A DNA stretch of 33,790 bases, taken from positions 1 through 33,790 of IMG/VR virus record IMGVR_UViG_3300033571_019167; one strand, written 5' to 3'. The notes under the pieces are model-generated. The model was not told the origin of the DNA. It made no database searches and was given only the letters and a program-made list of their open reading frames with translations. The translations under genes and the position numbers were made by a program. This document shows positions 19,080 to 27,218 of the stretch, one piece after another. Positions within the stretch are counted from its first letter, which is position 1, and the number at the start of each line of letters is the position of its first letter. The DNA comes from a virus.

Positions 19080-20081
19080 ATGTCCTTGCTCTCCCATCCA
19101 CCAATGGTTTACAAGAAGGACGACGGATTCGACTATCCGTCTTTCTTCGAGTACTACAGAAAAGCGGTCGGATCGGTGTGGAGACCGGAAGAAGTCTCGA
19201 TGAGGTCGGATATAACGGATTGGCAGCAAAATACGACGCAGTCGGAACGCGATCTTATCGCCGGAGTTCTGCGTGGGTTCACTTCGGCCGAATTAGGGAT
19301 CGGCTGTTACTGGGGAGACCGGGTCACCCGTATTTTCCCGAAACCTGAGATCCAAGCCATGGCTCGGGCTTTTAGTTTCTTCGAGCAAATCCATGCCGAA
19401 GCCTATAACTACTTGTCCGACACGCTCAATCTCAATGAATTCGAGCAGTTCATGAGCGACCCGGTAGCTCAGCGTAAGGTCGAAAAGTTCTTTGATAACT
19501 GCGGTTCGGACAAAGTAAGCCTGGCCGTGTTCAGCGGAGCTGGTGAAGGCGTATCGCTCTACAGCTCTTTTGCAATCCTACTGGCCTTCAATAAAGACGG
19601 CAGATTCAAAGGACTAACCCAGATAATTTCATGGTCTTGTCTGGACGAAGCTCAGCACAGCGAAGGCGGTAGCGAACTCTTCCGCGAACTGGTCAAAGAG
19701 ACCGGAATTACGGCCGAAGAGATCAAAGAAATTGCTGACGGATTTGATTCAATAATTGAAAACGAATTCTCGTTTCTGGACAACACTTTTAGTCGTATAG
19801 ACCCGTCCGTCGTTCCGATCTCGCTGGCCGAACTTAAGTCGTACATATTGTTACGGGCCAATAATCGTCTGTCCAATCTGTCTCTTGACATCCGCATACC
19901 AATGACAGGACAGGAAACCGATCTGGCCATGAAATTATCTAGCTGGTTCGAACCTGTTATACGCGGACAAGTCAATCACGACGCCTTTGCTCGAGCTAAA
20001 GCCGGAGACAGTTACACCTCCAAACCCTCACAAGACTTCAACAGTGTCGATCTCAGCTCACTCGACTTAACACTGGTATAA
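19080..20081 (+). CDS. nrdB: class I ribonucleotide reductase beta subunit
   Basis: Builds the di-metal/tyrosyl radical that NrdA uses to reduce ribonucleotides. All expected ligands are visible by pattern: D47 (DITDW), E102 and H105 in the E-x2-H-x3-Y motif (FEQIHAEAY) with radical Tyr Y109, E156 (GAGEG), and E190/H193 in 'DEAQH'. The C-terminal 'VDLSSLDL' resembles the NrdB tail peptide that docks on NrdA. The length of 333 aa is near the phage/cyanobacterial norm. The presence of Y109 argues for a Tyr-radical enzyme rather than a class Ic Phe variant. It is separated from nrdA by two small ORFs and an HNH nuclease gene. ATG start. Confidence 0.95.
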   Translation: MSLLSHPPMVYKKDDGFDYPSFFEYYRKAVGSVWRPEEVSMRSDITDWQQNTTQSERDLIAGVLRGFTSAELGIGCYWGDRVTRIFPKPEIQAMARAFSFFEQIHAEAYNYLSDTLNLNEFEQFMSDPVAQRKVEKFFDNCGSDKVSLAVFSGAGEGVSLYSSFAILLAFNKDGRFKGLTQIISWSCLDEAQHSEGGSELFRELVKETGITAEEIKEIADGFDSIIENEFSFLDNTFSRIDPSVVPISLAELKSYILLRANNRLSNLSLDIRIPMTGQETDLAMKLSSWFEPVIRGQVNHDAFARAKAGDSYTSKPSQDFNSVDLSSLDLTLV

Positions 20082-20274: not shown

Positions 20275-20409
20275 ATGCGCGTCGTGTTCGGCACATCTTG
20301 CCTGATTACGGAAGCCGGTCGAGCTGACAAGCTACTCGATCTGGCCCATAAGCGCCGTGTGAATCGGGAGAAATTCATCGATCAGCCCATAGATGCTTGG
20401 GATATCTGA
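20275..20409 (+). CDS. small unknown protein (44 aa)
   Basis: ATG at 20275, 13 bp after the previous small ORF. The TGA stop overlaps the ATG of the HNH gene by one base (TGATG), a translational-coupling junction. The peptide (MRVVFGTSCLITEAGRADKL...) is basic and amphipathic in its second half. An in-frame ATG at 20221 would add 18 Lys/Thr-rich residues but would overlap the upstream ORF. Function unknown. Confidence 0.45.
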   Translation: MRVVFGTSCLITEAGRADKLLDLAHKRRVNREKFIDQPIDAWDI

Positions 20410-20891
20410 TGGAAATAAATATCAACATACCGGAAGGATGGGGCGTAGACGACGAAGTCGAAAGCTTCGAAGAAGTCCCGGAACTCGACCCAAACGACGC
20501 GCGTGAAGAGGTCTGGAAACGCTGGAAAGATTCGCCGTTCCAGGTGTCCAACATGGGCAGGGTCAGACGGATCAAGTCGGACGGTTCGGTGAAGATGCGT
20601 AAACCACGGTCCGATGACCGTGGCAAGTATCGGATGAATGCGACATGGGTACGGAACGGTGTGCCGTATCGCGAAGAGTTTTTTATCCACCAGGCTGTCA
20701 TGGCCTTGTTCGGACCGGAAAAACCAGAAGGCGAACACATCGTTGTGTGCCATAAACGACCGACCGGCGAAGACGGTAAGCCGAATAACCGGCTGTCCAA
20801 TCTCTACTGGTGCGACCGTAGCCGGAACGTCGAAGATGCTTGGGACGACGGACTGATGGACACCGGGGCTAAATGGAAAAACGACGGATAA
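20409..20891 (+). CDS. NUMOD4/HNH homing-type endonuclease
   Basis: The protein has an acidic N-terminus, then a NUMOD4-like segment (W36 through 'FQVSNMGRVRRIK', residues 44-56), then an HNH_3-type core: 'IHQAVMALFG' (residues 93-102), 'VVCHKRPTGEDGKPNNRLSN' and 'LYW' (112-134). H94, H115 and the Asn residues of NNRLSN are the candidate catalytic/metal positions. The family includes intron-encoded and free-standing homing endonucleases such as I-HmuI. The start is ATG at 20409, overlapping the stop before it; an upstream in-frame TTG at 20397 is less likely. Its placement between nrdB and nrdA resembles the repeated invasion of phage nrd genes by homing endonucleases. No intron boundary is evident. 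Confidence 0.82.
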   Translation: MEININIPEGWGVDDEVESFEEVPELDPNDAREEVWKRWKDSPFQVSNMGRVRRIKSDGSVKMRKPRSDDRGKYRMNATWVRNGVPYREEFFIHQAVMALFGPEKPEGEHIVVCHKRPTGEDGKPNNRLSNLYWCDRSRNVEDAWDDGLMDTGAKWKNDG

Positions 20892-20979: not shown

Positions 20980-22929
20980 ATGCCTGATTTCGACATCAAC
21001 ACGCTGCCCACTCGCCCGACCTGGCTGACCGACGAAGCGCAGAAGACCTTGTCAGCAGGTTATCTGATGCCTGGCGAAACTCCGCGCGACATGTGGAAGC
21101 GTTGCGCCATGACTGCGGAGCGATACTTGAACTACGAGGGAATTGGCTCGGACATCATGGAGATGTTCTGGCGCGGGTACATGGGCGGTGCAACGCCGGT
21201 CCTGAGCAACTACGGAACTGCGCGTGGTCTGCCAATCTCTTGTTTTACGTGTCACCCCAGCGACTCGGTCAACAGTATCTACAGCCACCTCAAAGAAGTC
21301 GCCGCACTAAGCAAAAACGGAGGCGGTGTGGGCGTATATTTCGGCGATATACGGCCCAGTGGCGCACCGATCAGCGGGGGTGGCAAATCGACCGGCATTG
21401 TGCCCTGGATGCGCCAGTACGACCTCGCTGCGAGCGTGGTGTCTCAAGGTAACACGCGGCGCGGATCGTTCGCTCTTTACTTACCAATCGACCACCCCGA
21501 TCTACCCGAAGCTCTGAGGTCGAAAGACCATAGTCAAGGCGACCCACGACAGTTCATCGATAGCAACTTGGCCGTGACTGTGACGGACGAGTGGATCGAG
21601 TCGATGATGGCGGGAGACAAGAAAAAACAAGACCTGTTCGGCGAAGTACTGAAGTGTCGGATGATCTCGGGATCTCCGTACATCGTGTTTATCGACAACG
21701 CGAACAAGCAGCGCCCGGACTGTTTCAAGCAAAGAAACCTGGAAATCTTTACGAGTAATCTGTGCTCGGAGATTTTCTTACCGACCGACGAAAACCACAC
21801 GTTTGTGTGTGTGCTTAGCTCGCTGAACCTGGCCAAGTACGACGAATGGCGCCACTGGACCGGTCAGAACACCGGTAAAACTGCGCCGGAGCTGGGAATC
21901 TACTTCCTCGACGCTGTGGTCGAAGAGTTCATTCACAAGGCCGAGCGTATCACGTCGATGGGCAGGTCGGTCCGATTCGCTAAGAAGTCTCGTGCGCTCG
22001 GTCTGGGCACAATGGGCCTGCACGCACTGTATCAATCCCGAGGTCTGCCTTTCTCCTCATCGGCCTCACGAACCTTAAACGTCGAAGTCCATGGCTGGAT
22101 CGACGACATGACGCTAAAGGCGTCGCAGGATATGGCCAGAGAGTATGGCGAACCGGAGTGGTGCGAGGGCAACGGGGTCAGACATGCCACACGCACGGCC
22201 ATCGCACCGACCAAGACGAACTCGGTGATCTGCGGCGCAGTCAGTGAAGGTGTTGACCCGTTGACTGCGAATCTGTTCGTGGCCGGTAACGCGAAGGGCA
22301 CGTTTGTCCGTAGAAACCCTTACCTCGAGTCGCACCTGACGGCTATAGGTAAAAATACTCAGGAGGTATGGGACAGCATTCTGGACGAGCGCGGTTCGGT
22401 TCAGCATCTTAATTTTCTCAGCCGAGGGGCCAAAGAAATATTCAAGACGGCCAGAGAAATCGACCAGCTTGAGATCATTAAACAAGCTGCGGATCGTCAG
22501 AACTACGTTTGCCAGGGTCAGTCAGTCAATCTATACGTTGACCCGGAAATCTCCGCACACGATCTGTTCCGTATCCACTTGTCGGCTTGGAAGAGCGGAA
22601 TGAAGTCGCTCTACTATCTCAAATCGAGCTCGTTGCAGGTCAAGAAAACCAAAAAAGAGTCGGTTCAGTCCAAGGTCTCCATGGTCGTTACTAAGCCCGG
22701 TTGCCCGTGGTGCGTGAAGGTCAAGGAACTACTGAAATCACATGGCTATGTGGTCCAAGAGACCGATCGGTCCGGTATTCCTGACTCCGACTGGCCGTAT
22801 CAGACTGTTCCGCAGGTCTGGATAAATGGCGTCCATGTCGAAGGAGGGTATGAAGGAACACGAAGAGTTCTGGAACCCGAACTCGACGAATCGGAGAAAT
22901 ACACGGAATGCGCAGCCTGTTCGGGCTGA
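20980..22929 (+). CDS. nrdA: ribonucleotide reductase alpha subunit with inserted glutaredoxin domain
   Basis: Reduces NDPs to dNDPs with NrdB. Numbered from the ATG at 20980 (649 aa), the catalytic set is present: C88 in 'ISCFTC' and C277 in 'FVCVLSSLNL' (active-site disulfide pair), N260-C262-E264 in 'SNLCSEI' (thiyl radical site), and Y545-Y546 in 'SLYYLKSSS' (radical transfer). There is no N-terminal ATP cone, so dATP shut-off is probably lost. After the YY segment a full glutaredoxin domain follows: CPWC at 575-578, cis-Pro 'TVPQVW' at about 609-614 and 'GGYEG' at 622-626. The protein then ends in CAAC (644-647), the redox tail that normally follows the barrel directly. An in-frame TTG at 20956 is a less likely start. 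The upstream gap 20892-20979 holds nothing I can identify. Confidence 0.93.
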   Translation: MPDFDINTLPTRPTWLTDEAQKTLSAGYLMPGETPRDMWKRCAMTAERYLNYEGIGSDIMEMFWRGYMGGATPVLSNYGTARGLPISCFTCHPSDSVNSIYSHLKEVAALSKNGGGVGVYFGDIRPSGAPISGGGKSTGIVPWMRQYDLAASVVSQGNTRRGSFALYLPIDHPDLPEALRSKDHSQGDPRQFIDSNLAVTVTDEWIESMMAGDKKKQDLFGEVLKCRMISGSPYIVFIDNANKQRPDCFKQRNLEIFTSNLCSEIFLPTDENHTFVCVLSSLNLAKYDEWRHWTGQNTGKTAPELGIYFLDAVVEEFIHKAERITSMGRSVRFAKKSRALGLGTMGLHALYQSRGLPFSSSASRTLNVEVHGWIDDMTLKASQDMAREYGEPEWCEGNGVRHATRTAIAPTKTNSVICGAVSEGVDPLTANLFVAGNAKGTFVRRNPYLESHLTAIGKNTQEVWDSILDERGSVQHLNFLSRGAKEIFKTAREIDQLEIIKQAADRQNYVCQGQSVNLYVDPEISAHDLFRIHLSAWKSGMKSLYYLKSSSLQVKKTKKESVQSKVSMVVTKPGCPWCVKVKELLKSHGYVVQETDRSGIPDSDWPYQTVPQVWINGVHVEGGYEGTRRVLEPELDESEKYTECAACSG

Positions 22930-22968: not shown

Positions 22969-23604
22969 ATGATCTCTCCGGTCTTTTACACCGAGCCAGG
23001 CAACGAAATGTTCGTACCCCAGGTCGCCCATCCGGGCGAAGACGCTGGCGCTGACATCCGGGCCAATGTGTTTTGGGGCGAAGAGTATGAGGTTGTCGGG
23101 TTTTTCCTTAGATGGAGAGACTCGGACTGCGCCAGACTGTTCGTGGACGGGGTTGAGTATACGTGCGATGCCGGAGTATCCGCGCGATTCGTCTCCGATT
23201 CTTTCATGTCTCAATACGACGGAGCCGTGCTACTCGAGCCGAATCAGCGTGTTCTAGTAGATAGCGGCTTCAAGATCATCCTGCCCAACCTGAAAAACCT
23301 CGGAGCCCCGTGGAACTCGCTGGTCTGTGTGTACAAAATCGTTTCACGAAGCGGATTGGCCGCTAAACACGGCGTGGTTGTGACCAATTCGCCCGGCATA
23401 ATCGACTCGGGTTACCAAGACTTCGTGAAAGTCTCACTCCACAACACAAGCGAAAACTACCACGTATTTACGCGCGGTGCGCGAATAGCACAGGGCTTGT
23501 GCGAAATGGTGATCGACCAGTCAAAAGCCGAATCAACTACTAATTCCAACGTATTCAATGTCACAGCTCGATCGACTGGCGGTCTGGGTTCGACCAGAAT
23601 ATGA
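22969..23604 (+). CDS. dut: dUTP pyrophosphatase with insertion
   Basis: Hydrolyses dUTP to dUMP, keeping uracil out of DNA and feeding dTMP synthesis. The trimeric-dUTPase motifs are visible in order: I 'HPGEDAGADIRA' (21-32), II 'RSGLAAKHGV' (127-136), III 'SPGIIDSGYQDF' (141-152), IV 'RGARIAQG' (169-176) and V 'RSTGGLGSTR' (201-210). Two deviations stand out. About 60 extra residues lie between motifs I and II (about 34-90), giving 211 aa against a usual 150. Motif III has DF where GE is usual. It belongs with the adjacent nrd genes. The stop overlaps the next ATG by 4 bp (ATGA). ATG start, no Shine-Dalgarno. Confidence 0.88.
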   Translation: MISPVFYTEPGNEMFVPQVAHPGEDAGADIRANVFWGEEYEVVGFFLRWRDSDCARLFVDGVEYTCDAGVSARFVSDSFMSQYDGAVLLEPNQRVLVDSGFKIILPNLKNLGAPWNSLVCVYKIVSRSGLAAKHGVVVTNSPGIIDSGYQDFVKVSLHNTSENYHVFTRGARIAQGLCEMVIDQSKAESTTNSNVFNVTARSTGGLGSTRI

Positions 23605-25467: not shown

Positions 25468-26676
25468 ATGCCCTCCGAACTTAAAGACCAATGGTTATCC
25501 GAAACGCTCCGTTCTGAGCCGATCCTGCCCCTCGTTGTGATTGACTTCCGGGTCTACGCACACCAGGTCCATTCATTCACCGAGTCTGCGACCGATCTGG
25601 TCGGTAACGATGAAGCCAAGCTTCGGTCCATAGTCCGAGCACTCTGGGCTTACCGACTAAATCGAGGTATAGACTCGATCGAGGCTCGCGACTTCACCGC
25701 GGTAGTTGTCGATGACAACAAAAGCAAATTTGAAGGGACCGAAATCACCGGGTATTGGAGGCATCTGGAGGCCCATAAGCTCGGTATGCCGGAATACAAA
25801 GGGGGTAGACCGGATAAACCCAGCCTATTTCCTATCATCCTAGAAGAAGGTTACAAGTATATTAAATCGCCCGGGTCTACGTTCCATTTCTTCGATAAAC
25901 CGTACTACGAAGCCGATGACATAGCGGGCAAAATCGCCCGAATCCAGCGGGAAAGTCAGAACCCCGAGCGATACATACTGTTGTCTACGCTAGACGGAGA
26001 CTGGCAAGGCTTGGTATCCGACGAGCATAAGATTGTCTGGTGCAACACCGGGCCATGGCTCCCTCGGATCCGGACCGAGACAGAAGTCTGTGACTACTAC
26101 TTACGCAAAGAGAAACTCCGGATCAATACGGCCAGAGAGACGTATACCGTAAAAGTCGAGGTCGGAGACAAAGGAGACAACCTGATGCCCGGCACTCCGC
26201 TCCGGTTCTTCGACCTGTACGAGGAAGACGAGGAATGGGGCTGGACTGACGCAGAGACAGCCGAGCTAAAGTCGATCATGGCGGACCGACGGGTGTCGAA
26301 CCGTCCCGACCACCTCGAACGCTCAGCCAAGTTCTTGCGGTCCATCGGAATGTTCTTGCCGGAGATCCCGCCCCCCACTCCGCACGATGTCGCGACGTTC
26401 GCCGAACGCGCCGTGCTGGAGCGGCGCGAAGCGTTGTGGCCCGGTCTGCGCGGCCTGAACAAGAAGTATTGTATTAACATTTCAGACCCTGCGCAGTTCG
26501 GGAAATGCGCTAAGATCGCTACAGATGATAACCTGGCTTTGGAGAAGATCAAGTCGCTTGAAGAAAAACGAAAGACCGACCCGGAAAACTTCGAGCCAGG
26601 TTTGCTGAAAGCTCTGAAAGAGTCGAGGAAGGATTACAAAGCGTCGCTGATTCGTTTTGCGGAGGCCGCACAGTGA
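25468..26676 (+). CDS. 5'-3' exonuclease / FEN-like nuclease
   Basis: Probably removes primers or flaps during replication, like T4 RNase H. FEN/PIN signatures are D26 in 'PLVVIDFR', 'YYEADDIAGKIAR' (D150, D151), 'LLSTLDGDWQGLV' (D176, D178) and the helix-three-turn-helix glycine loop 'VGDKGDNLMPG' (residues 232-242). At 402 aa it is longer than T4 RNase H (about 305 aa), owing to a charged helical C-terminus (about 280-402) without a recognised domain. It lies directly upstream of the oxygenase (4-bp overlap), helicase and primase genes. ATG start, no Shine-Dalgarno. Confidence 0.82.
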   Translation: MPSELKDQWLSETLRSEPILPLVVIDFRVYAHQVHSFTESATDLVGNDEAKLRSIVRALWAYRLNRGIDSIEARDFTAVVVDDNKSKFEGTEITGYWRHLEAHKLGMPEYKGGRPDKPSLFPIILEEGYKYIKSPGSTFHFFDKPYYEADDIAGKIARIQRESQNPERYILLSTLDGDWQGLVSDEHKIVWCNTGPWLPRIRTETEVCDYYLRKEKLRINTARETYTVKVEVGDKGDNLMPGTPLRFFDLYEEDEEWGWTDAETAELKSIMADRRVSNRPDHLERSAKFLRSIGMFLPEIPPPTPHDVATFAERAVLERREALWPGLRGLNKKYCINISDPAQFGKCAKIATDDNLALEKIKSLEEKRKTDPENFEPGLLKALKESRKDYKASLIRFAEAAQ

Positions 26677-27218
26677 CCGTAGAAAGCATGTTTCAGGTCC
26701 CCATTCTTCACCTTGCGGTTCAGGACTGGGAGAACAAAAAACAGATGCTCCGGAGTATCTCGGAAAAAGTTAACATGCAGAGCCATGATACGGTCTGGAC
26801 TAACTATTACGACGACCGTGAATCTCTGAATCAAGATGTCGTAGACGTGTTGACCGACGAAATACTCGAGTTTCACTCCGAATTTGGGTTTATAGAAACT
26901 CAAGTGACCTCGTCCTGGTTTGAGAGGTCGACGAGGAACGGTTCGCACTGTCCGCATACCCATGGAGCCACAGGTTACAGTTCCGTGTGCTATGTGGACT
27001 ATGACAAATCGTGTCACACTCCGACACAGTTTATTTCTCCGTTTCTCAACTTCTTGGACGGCAATGCTATTCACTACGCCCCGAACGTAGATGAAGGGTC
27101 TATTATCTTTTTCCCCTCGTCTATAATTCACCGTACCTCTCCGAATTTCTCTGACAAAGAACGCTTGGTTTTATCGTTCAATATTCTGGTAAAAAAGCTT
27201 AATACGGAAGGGGTCTAA
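26673..27218 (+). CDS. 2-oxoglutarate/Fe(II)-dependent oxygenase-like protein
   Basis: Resembles the 2OG-Fe(II) oxygenase type common in cyanophages: an Fe-binding 'HTHGATGYSSVCYVDYD' segment (H95, H97; residues 95-111), later 'EGSIIFFPSSIIHRTSP' with the distal H153, and an Arg (R164) before 'LVLSFNI', the expected 2OG-binding position. The length of 181 aa is typical of the group. The substrate is unknown; a base, nucleotide or protein hydroxylase are all possible. It starts at GTG overlapping the exonuclease stop by 4 bp, although an in-frame ATG at 26688 could also serve. It lies 6 bp before the helicase gene, so it is expressed with replication proteins. Confidence 0.75.
   Translation: MTVESMFQVPILHLAVQDWENKKQMLRSISEKVNMQSHDTVWTNYYDDRESLNQDVVDVLTDEILEFHSEFGFIETQVTSSWFERSTRNGSHCPHTHGATGYSSVCYVDYDKSCHTPTQFISPFLNFLDGNAIHYAPNVDEGSIIFFPSSIIHRTSPNFSDKERLVLSFNILVKKLNTEGV

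Follow-up and report, generated by a model that had tools for sequence, protein, structure and literature searches.

The nrdB–nrdA Locus

The window analyzed here is a 33,790-nucleotide stretch of viral DNA (the IMG/VR record IMGVR_UViG_3300033571_019167), and the parts of the nrdB–nrdA locus described below are encoded on its plus strand. It contains the genes for both subunits of a class I ribonucleotide reductase (RNR). The radical-generating subunit is encoded by nrdB (19080..20081; 333 aa), which was identified by PF00268 and by alignments. The catalytic subunit is encoded by nrdA (20980..22929, stop codon included), a single open reading frame (ORF) of 649 aa with zero internal stops in which a NrdA core, a glutaredoxin (Grx) domain and a CxxC tail are fused in one protein. 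Between the two genes, and outside the fusion, Pfam identifies an ORF for a NUMOD4/HNH-type endonuclease (20397..20891); an HNH gene is also found in the nrdB–nrdA gap of the cyanophage S-TIM5, and hence a homing element beside nrdA is suggested.

The NrdA core (residues 1–549; 20980..22626) was defined by Pfam, by invariant alignment columns and by fold matches. Pfam matches Ribonuc_red_lgC in this protein (E=7e-101) but no ATP cone, and the hallmarks of a class I NrdA are all present: the active-site Cys, the finger-loop Asn/Cys/Glu, the YY pair and the CxxC tail, with C88, N260, C262, E264, C277 and Y545-Y546 of the core all located in invariant columns of the alignment. Just as the first-pass annotation of this DNA had proposed, the core ends at the YY radical-transfer motif and a complete glutaredoxin precedes the redox tail; a short linker joins the core to the glutaredoxin. 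The linker (residues 550–565; 22627..22674) was delimited by the AlphaFold2 model and by the range of its length among fused sequences, and the glutaredoxin domain (residues 566–631; 22675..22872) by PF00462 and its predicted fold. The PF00462 match itself covers residues 568–620 (E=2.5e-10; 40.8 bits, with a curated cut-off of 22.9). Within this domain are a CPWC dithiol active site (C575 and C578; 22702..22713), assigned from residue positions and conserved in the fused sequences; a TVPQ motif (residues 609–612; 22804..22815), predicted to form the cis-proline loop of the fold; and a GG glutathione-site motif (residues 622–623; 22843..22848), shared with E. coli Grx3 in an alignment, the last two motifs being invariant across the fused sequences. 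The protein terminates with a spacer and the C-terminal redox tail, PELDESEKYTECAACSG (residues 632–649; 22873..22926), in which disorder is predicted from residue 637. The CAAC tail cysteines are C644 and C647 (22909..22920), and this CxxC is conserved in the fused sequences.

The proposal that the domain is a glutaredoxin of the glutathione type draws support from Pfam, from a profile match (the family Grx profile to E. coli Grx3, E=9e-16) and from the predicted fold. In NCBIfam, the window protein matched glutaredoxin models only, and no NrdH model at E<=0.001. An AlphaFold2 model of NrdA, made with 42 window and locus sequences, has a mean pLDDT of 89; by block, the pLDDT is ~85–94 in the Grx, falls to 59–72 in the linker, where it is lowest between the domains, and is <50 for residues 637–649. 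In this model the pTM and pLDDT leave the position of the Grx relative to the NrdA core unfixed. When modelled alone (pLDDT 78), the Grx–tail piece matches glutaredoxins (Z 8.3–8.9), for example those of T4, Francisella (Grx1) and E. coli (Grx3, Z=8.8). The score above the cut-off, the CPxC, TVP and GG motifs and the predicted thioredoxin-type fold all argue for a glutaredoxin.

One criterion for class Id (NrdAi/NrdBi) is a Mn(III)Mn(IV) cofactor. In alignments, the window NrdB carries the Tyr/Glu pair typical of this class (E71 and Y109, with an ExxHxxxY context), a pair that serves as the definition of class Id (PMC8463856). The window NrdA is closest by sequence to the class Id alpha chains 6DQW (E=2e-141) and 6DQX (E=9e-136), which are also the best fold matches of the core (TM-score on target 0.97 and 0.96, respectively), and the RNR of S-TIM5 has been assigned to class Id (PMC6370689). 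From these alignments and predicted folds we consider the window RNR to be class Id-like, a label preferred because the metal-site Lys71 of F. johnsoniae NrdB is replaced in the pairwise alignment by Gly75 of the window NrdB.

The window phage and S-TIM5 have in common the gene order nrdB-HNH-nrdA and identities of 58% in the terminase, 54% in the primase, ~64% in NrdA and 60% in NrdB; on these grounds the record most likely represents part of the genome of an S-TIM5-like cyanomyovirus, and from this kinship alone we infer a Synechococcus host. Two other genes of the window deserve mention. A dUTPase of 211 residues is encoded at 22969-23604; its Pfam match is limited to residues 123-209, and its N-terminal half may contain an insertion. 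At 26673-27218, adjoining replication genes, there is a predicted 2OG-Fe(II) oxygenase (PF13759, E=2.5e-11).

Position of the Glutaredoxin Domain

In some phages nrdA and grx are neighbors, and a sequencing or assembly error that merged two such genes could in principle have generated this reading frame. Such an origin is nevertheless vanishingly improbable. A separate contig (L002/L024) that is 99% identical over residues 1-645 spans the same junction, ~40 other fused loci read through it, and more than 40 sequences, isolated phages among them, carry the same fusion; the read error that the first-pass annotation had named as fatal to its proposal is thereby ruled out. The order of the domains is also contrary to that expected from a lost stop codon. 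Had the stop codon that separates nrdA from a grx behind it simply been lost, the tail would be in the middle of the protein, before the Grx. The tail is C-terminal, and this order indicates an insertion and not a stop loss.

Relatives that have no Grx domain indicate which of the two cysteine pairs belongs to the NrdA tail. In these proteins a [D/E]CxxC[E/Q][G/A] tail is found at the very end, directly after the linker (DECAACEG in Mx1 and DECLMCEG in phi14:2), and because they end in the same tail, the terminal CAAC of the window protein is the authentic NrdA tail. MAFFT sometimes places the tail of the Grx-less proteins on the CPxC of the Grx; the homology of the tails rests on the [D/E]CxxC[E/Q/S/H][G/A]-stop context. 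The native linker is recognisable in the unfused L096 (RTETSNRAENVAQKIERERLKD...DECTACHA) and it still precedes the Grx in C48C1 (RTEAKSRAETVSDKVERVALQD-Grx-GGDECRACEG). As judged from such comparisons, the Grx is inserted between the NrdA core with its linker and the tail. The figure of about 95 residues originally given for the displacement is adequate as the distance from YY to the tail (97 residues), but not as the size of the insertion; this is a net ~70 residues, since even in phage NrdAs that lack the Grx a median of 26 residues (range 13-38) separates YY from the tail.

Distribution and Sequence Constraint

A search for other NrdA–Grx architectures, suggested when the sequence was first read, revealed a widespread arrangement. 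Three scans, two viral and one genomic, gave at least 43 non-identical fused NrdA sequences with a usable core, and the fused layout is common to the 42 that reach the end, which come from both IMG/VR contigs and cyanophages. Among them are the isolated phages S-TIM5, S-TIM54, S-TIM61, S-TIM66 and S-CBWM1, as well as the phage record C48C1. By this sequence survey the fusion is a family trait of mostly uncultured ocean phages and not the singleton that the first-pass annotation had taken it for. In cellular genomes, one fused locus was found among the 80 GTDB loci listed (L104, 399-2297); it is located on a 6.4 kb contig in an Opitutales MAG bin, has CPSC instead of CPWC, and the contig is probably phage DNA. 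Large intein-like insertions occur in the fused nrdA of L004, L005, L006, L012 and S-CBWM1 (L015, 3775-4800) at two sites, after GLPVSC and after SNLC; that of S-CBWM1 is annotated as an intein, and the window copy has none.

The cysteine chemistry of the fused proteins has been strictly maintained. CP[WYFS]C is present in 43/43 fused sequences and the CxxC tail in 42/42 that reach the end, all 42 of which thus retain both cysteine pairs; nearly all of the fused sequences have exactly four cysteines after YY. The spacing is more flexible, with 21-45 residues (median 26) from YY to CPxC and 17-42 residues (median 18) from GG to the tail. The pooled pN/pS values (15 pairs) are 0.14 for the core, 0.24 for the linker, 0.21 for the Grx and 0.15 for the tail, and they are rough because the synonymous sites are often saturated; they nonetheless indicate that purifying selection acts on the Grx domain. 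Its somewhat faster evolution than that of the core (0.14) and tail (0.15) could be taken as the sign of a redox-dead spacer or assembly element, but such a role seems very improbable given that CPxC, TVP and GG are retained in every fused sequence, even along branches on which the synonymous sites are saturated.

In 25/25 fused phage records, among which those of S-TIM5, S-CBWM1 and C48C1 are complete genomes, PF00462 matches nothing but the fused domain. Their non-fused relatives have either no PF00462 gene or separate ones, and where the NrdA lacks a Grx, a separate grx is often located just downstream of nrdA. A thioredoxin-like gene scores above the cut-off in S-TIM5 and four of its relatives, with weaker matches in five more, and such a thioredoxin-like protein might serve the RNR. 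In S-TIM5 this gene (JQ245707.2, 111127-111396) is beside the large terminase; the equivalent site would be just past the left edge of the window.

Phylogeny of the Fused Proteins

In a tree of the NrdA core (80 rows, in “quick” mode for the full set), the fused rows are found in three places: a main clade of 37 sequences (36 and one truncated), C48C1 with L059, and L061. A single clade of all the fused rows was rejected by the AU test on this tree (p=8e-41), and the monophyly of C48C1/L059 with L061 was rejected as well (full tree, p=1e-4; careful subtree, p=5.5e-7). Yet in the Grx tree, which has 74 columns only, the Grx domains of C48C1/L059 and L061 group together with a support of 99/98. 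This second tree also contains L033, L044 and L048, fused proteins on short contigs that are outside the full-length core set. Since the core tree rejects one clade, and the Grx domains of the two small lineages nonetheless group together, these phylogenies point to at least two Grx acquisitions, and the same fused layout would have been reached more than once in evolution. The third placement may represent either a transferred cassette or an old shared fusion that was undone in the sister lineages; the change counts on the tree do not distinguish gain from loss. The sisters of both small fused lineages (L096 and L073) have a separate grx directly downstream of nrdA, and in L073 the grx ATG is within a few bases of the nrdA stop.

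A Plausible Thiol Relay

In class I RNRs, the disulfide formed in the active site is handed to a flexible C-terminal tail. By analogy with this chemistry, turnover of the window enzyme would generate a C88-C277 disulfide in the active site, and the flexible CAAC tail would enter the site and take over the disulfide. The oxidised tail would then be reduced, through C575, by the CPWC of the Grx to which it is tethered (a tether of ~12 residues), or by that of the partner subunit, and the glutaredoxin would in turn be re-reduced by host glutathione. The point of insertion keeps the tail at a free C-terminus, as needed if it is to swing between the two sites. From the sequence and the predicted folds, we believe it quite probable that the window protein is a class Id-like NrdA that carries its own glutathione-dependent reductant of its tail.

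Reduction of the NrdA tail in cis appears to be the most economical function for the Grx domain. The tails of class I RNRs can, however, act on the neighboring monomer, as work in yeast and E. coli revealed, and the Grx could similarly act mainly in trans, either on the partner tail of an alpha2 dimer or, as a general Grx, on host or phage proteins; as the sole Grx of these phages, the fused domain would have to assume any other Grx duties. We view a mainly trans role as the less probable alternative, though a serious one, because the recurrent placement of the Grx beside a tail that is still terminal favors a role on NrdA itself.

The glutathione-driven reduction of the tail is supported by the Facklamia ignava enzyme, a class Id Grx::NrdB in which, according to PMC6187632, the fused CPWC Grx drives GSH-dependent RNR turnover. 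Independence from host thioredoxin is a plausible consequence of such a system; reliance on the fused Grx would move the dependence to host glutathione and its reductase. The gshB Pfam family is uninformative as an indicator of host glutathione, since it also matches genomes in which glutathione would not be expected. What the phage might gain is a high local concentration of reductant, matched to the class I enzyme that it brings into class II RNR hosts. The Synechococcus and Prochlorococcus cells infected by S-TIM5 and by other cyanophages have RNRs of class II (PMC6370689), which provides a reason for the phage to bring a matched reductant, and more generally phages that import a foreign class of RNR may bring along a matched electron donor.

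Taken to its full extent, this interpretation holds that a self-recharging RNR has evolved repeatedly in phages through placement of a Grx at one exact position, after the NrdA linker and before the CxxC tail, and that the active site, the tail and the glutathione-coupled reductant thereby constitute an intramolecular thiol relay that replaces the stand-alone phage Grx, with at least two acquisitions and three placements in the tree; we regard the chances of this complete scenario as evenly balanced. How class I RNR tails are recharged, which redoxin is responsible and whether the reaction proceeds in cis or in trans are difficult to study, since the contact between tail and redoxin is brief. 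With the reductant and the tail in one chain, this contact could be captured, and the choice between cis and trans made approachable.

Comparison with Known Systems

The class Id alpha subunits of Flavobacterium johnsoniae (6DQW) and Actinobacillus ureae (6DQX) resemble the window protein in core fold and sequence, but their matched chains (585 and 574 residues) have no Grx domain. In Agrobacterium phage Atu_ph07, Sinorhizobium phage Phosso, Vibrio phage 1.193.O and the IMG/VR loci L073-L100, nrdA is followed by a downstream grx; the two proteins are separate and NrdA retains its CxxC tail. Among the closest known systems is the NrdA of the Aurunvirus S-TIM5 (and of S-TIM54/61/66), which has the same core-Grx-CxxC order, a whole-protein identity of 64% and the same nrdB-HNH-nrdA neighborhood. 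The S-TIM5 record annotates NrdA alone and leaves the glutaredoxin unnamed, and our literature search found no functional work on this protein.

Grx domains covalently linked to a class I RNR are known from the Grx::NrdB proteins of F. ignava and Francisella (PMC6187632), and the first-pass annotation had correctly cited the beta-subunit fusion of the former. In these, as described in that paper, the Grx is N-terminal on NrdB (in F. ignava beside an ATP cone) and acts, within the complex, on NrdA; in the window protein, by contrast, it is within the catalytic subunit, beside the tail and without an ATP cone. The same 2018 paper mentions a Grx fused to the NrdA of two viruses, without identifying them in its text or stating where in the protein the domain is located. 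With a Grx score of 44 bits, above the cut-off, S-TIM5 may be one of these viruses. The fusion of a Grx to an alpha subunit as such thus has a precedent, and the distinction drawn by the first-pass annotation holds, as far as our search extends, for the internal position between core and tail. That literature search, with subscription journals mostly outside its scope, found no account of the internal layout, its breadth, its recurrence or the one-Grx complement. What is new here, in comparison with these systems, is the insertion point, the breadth and recurrence of the fusion, and its replacement of the stand-alone grx gene.
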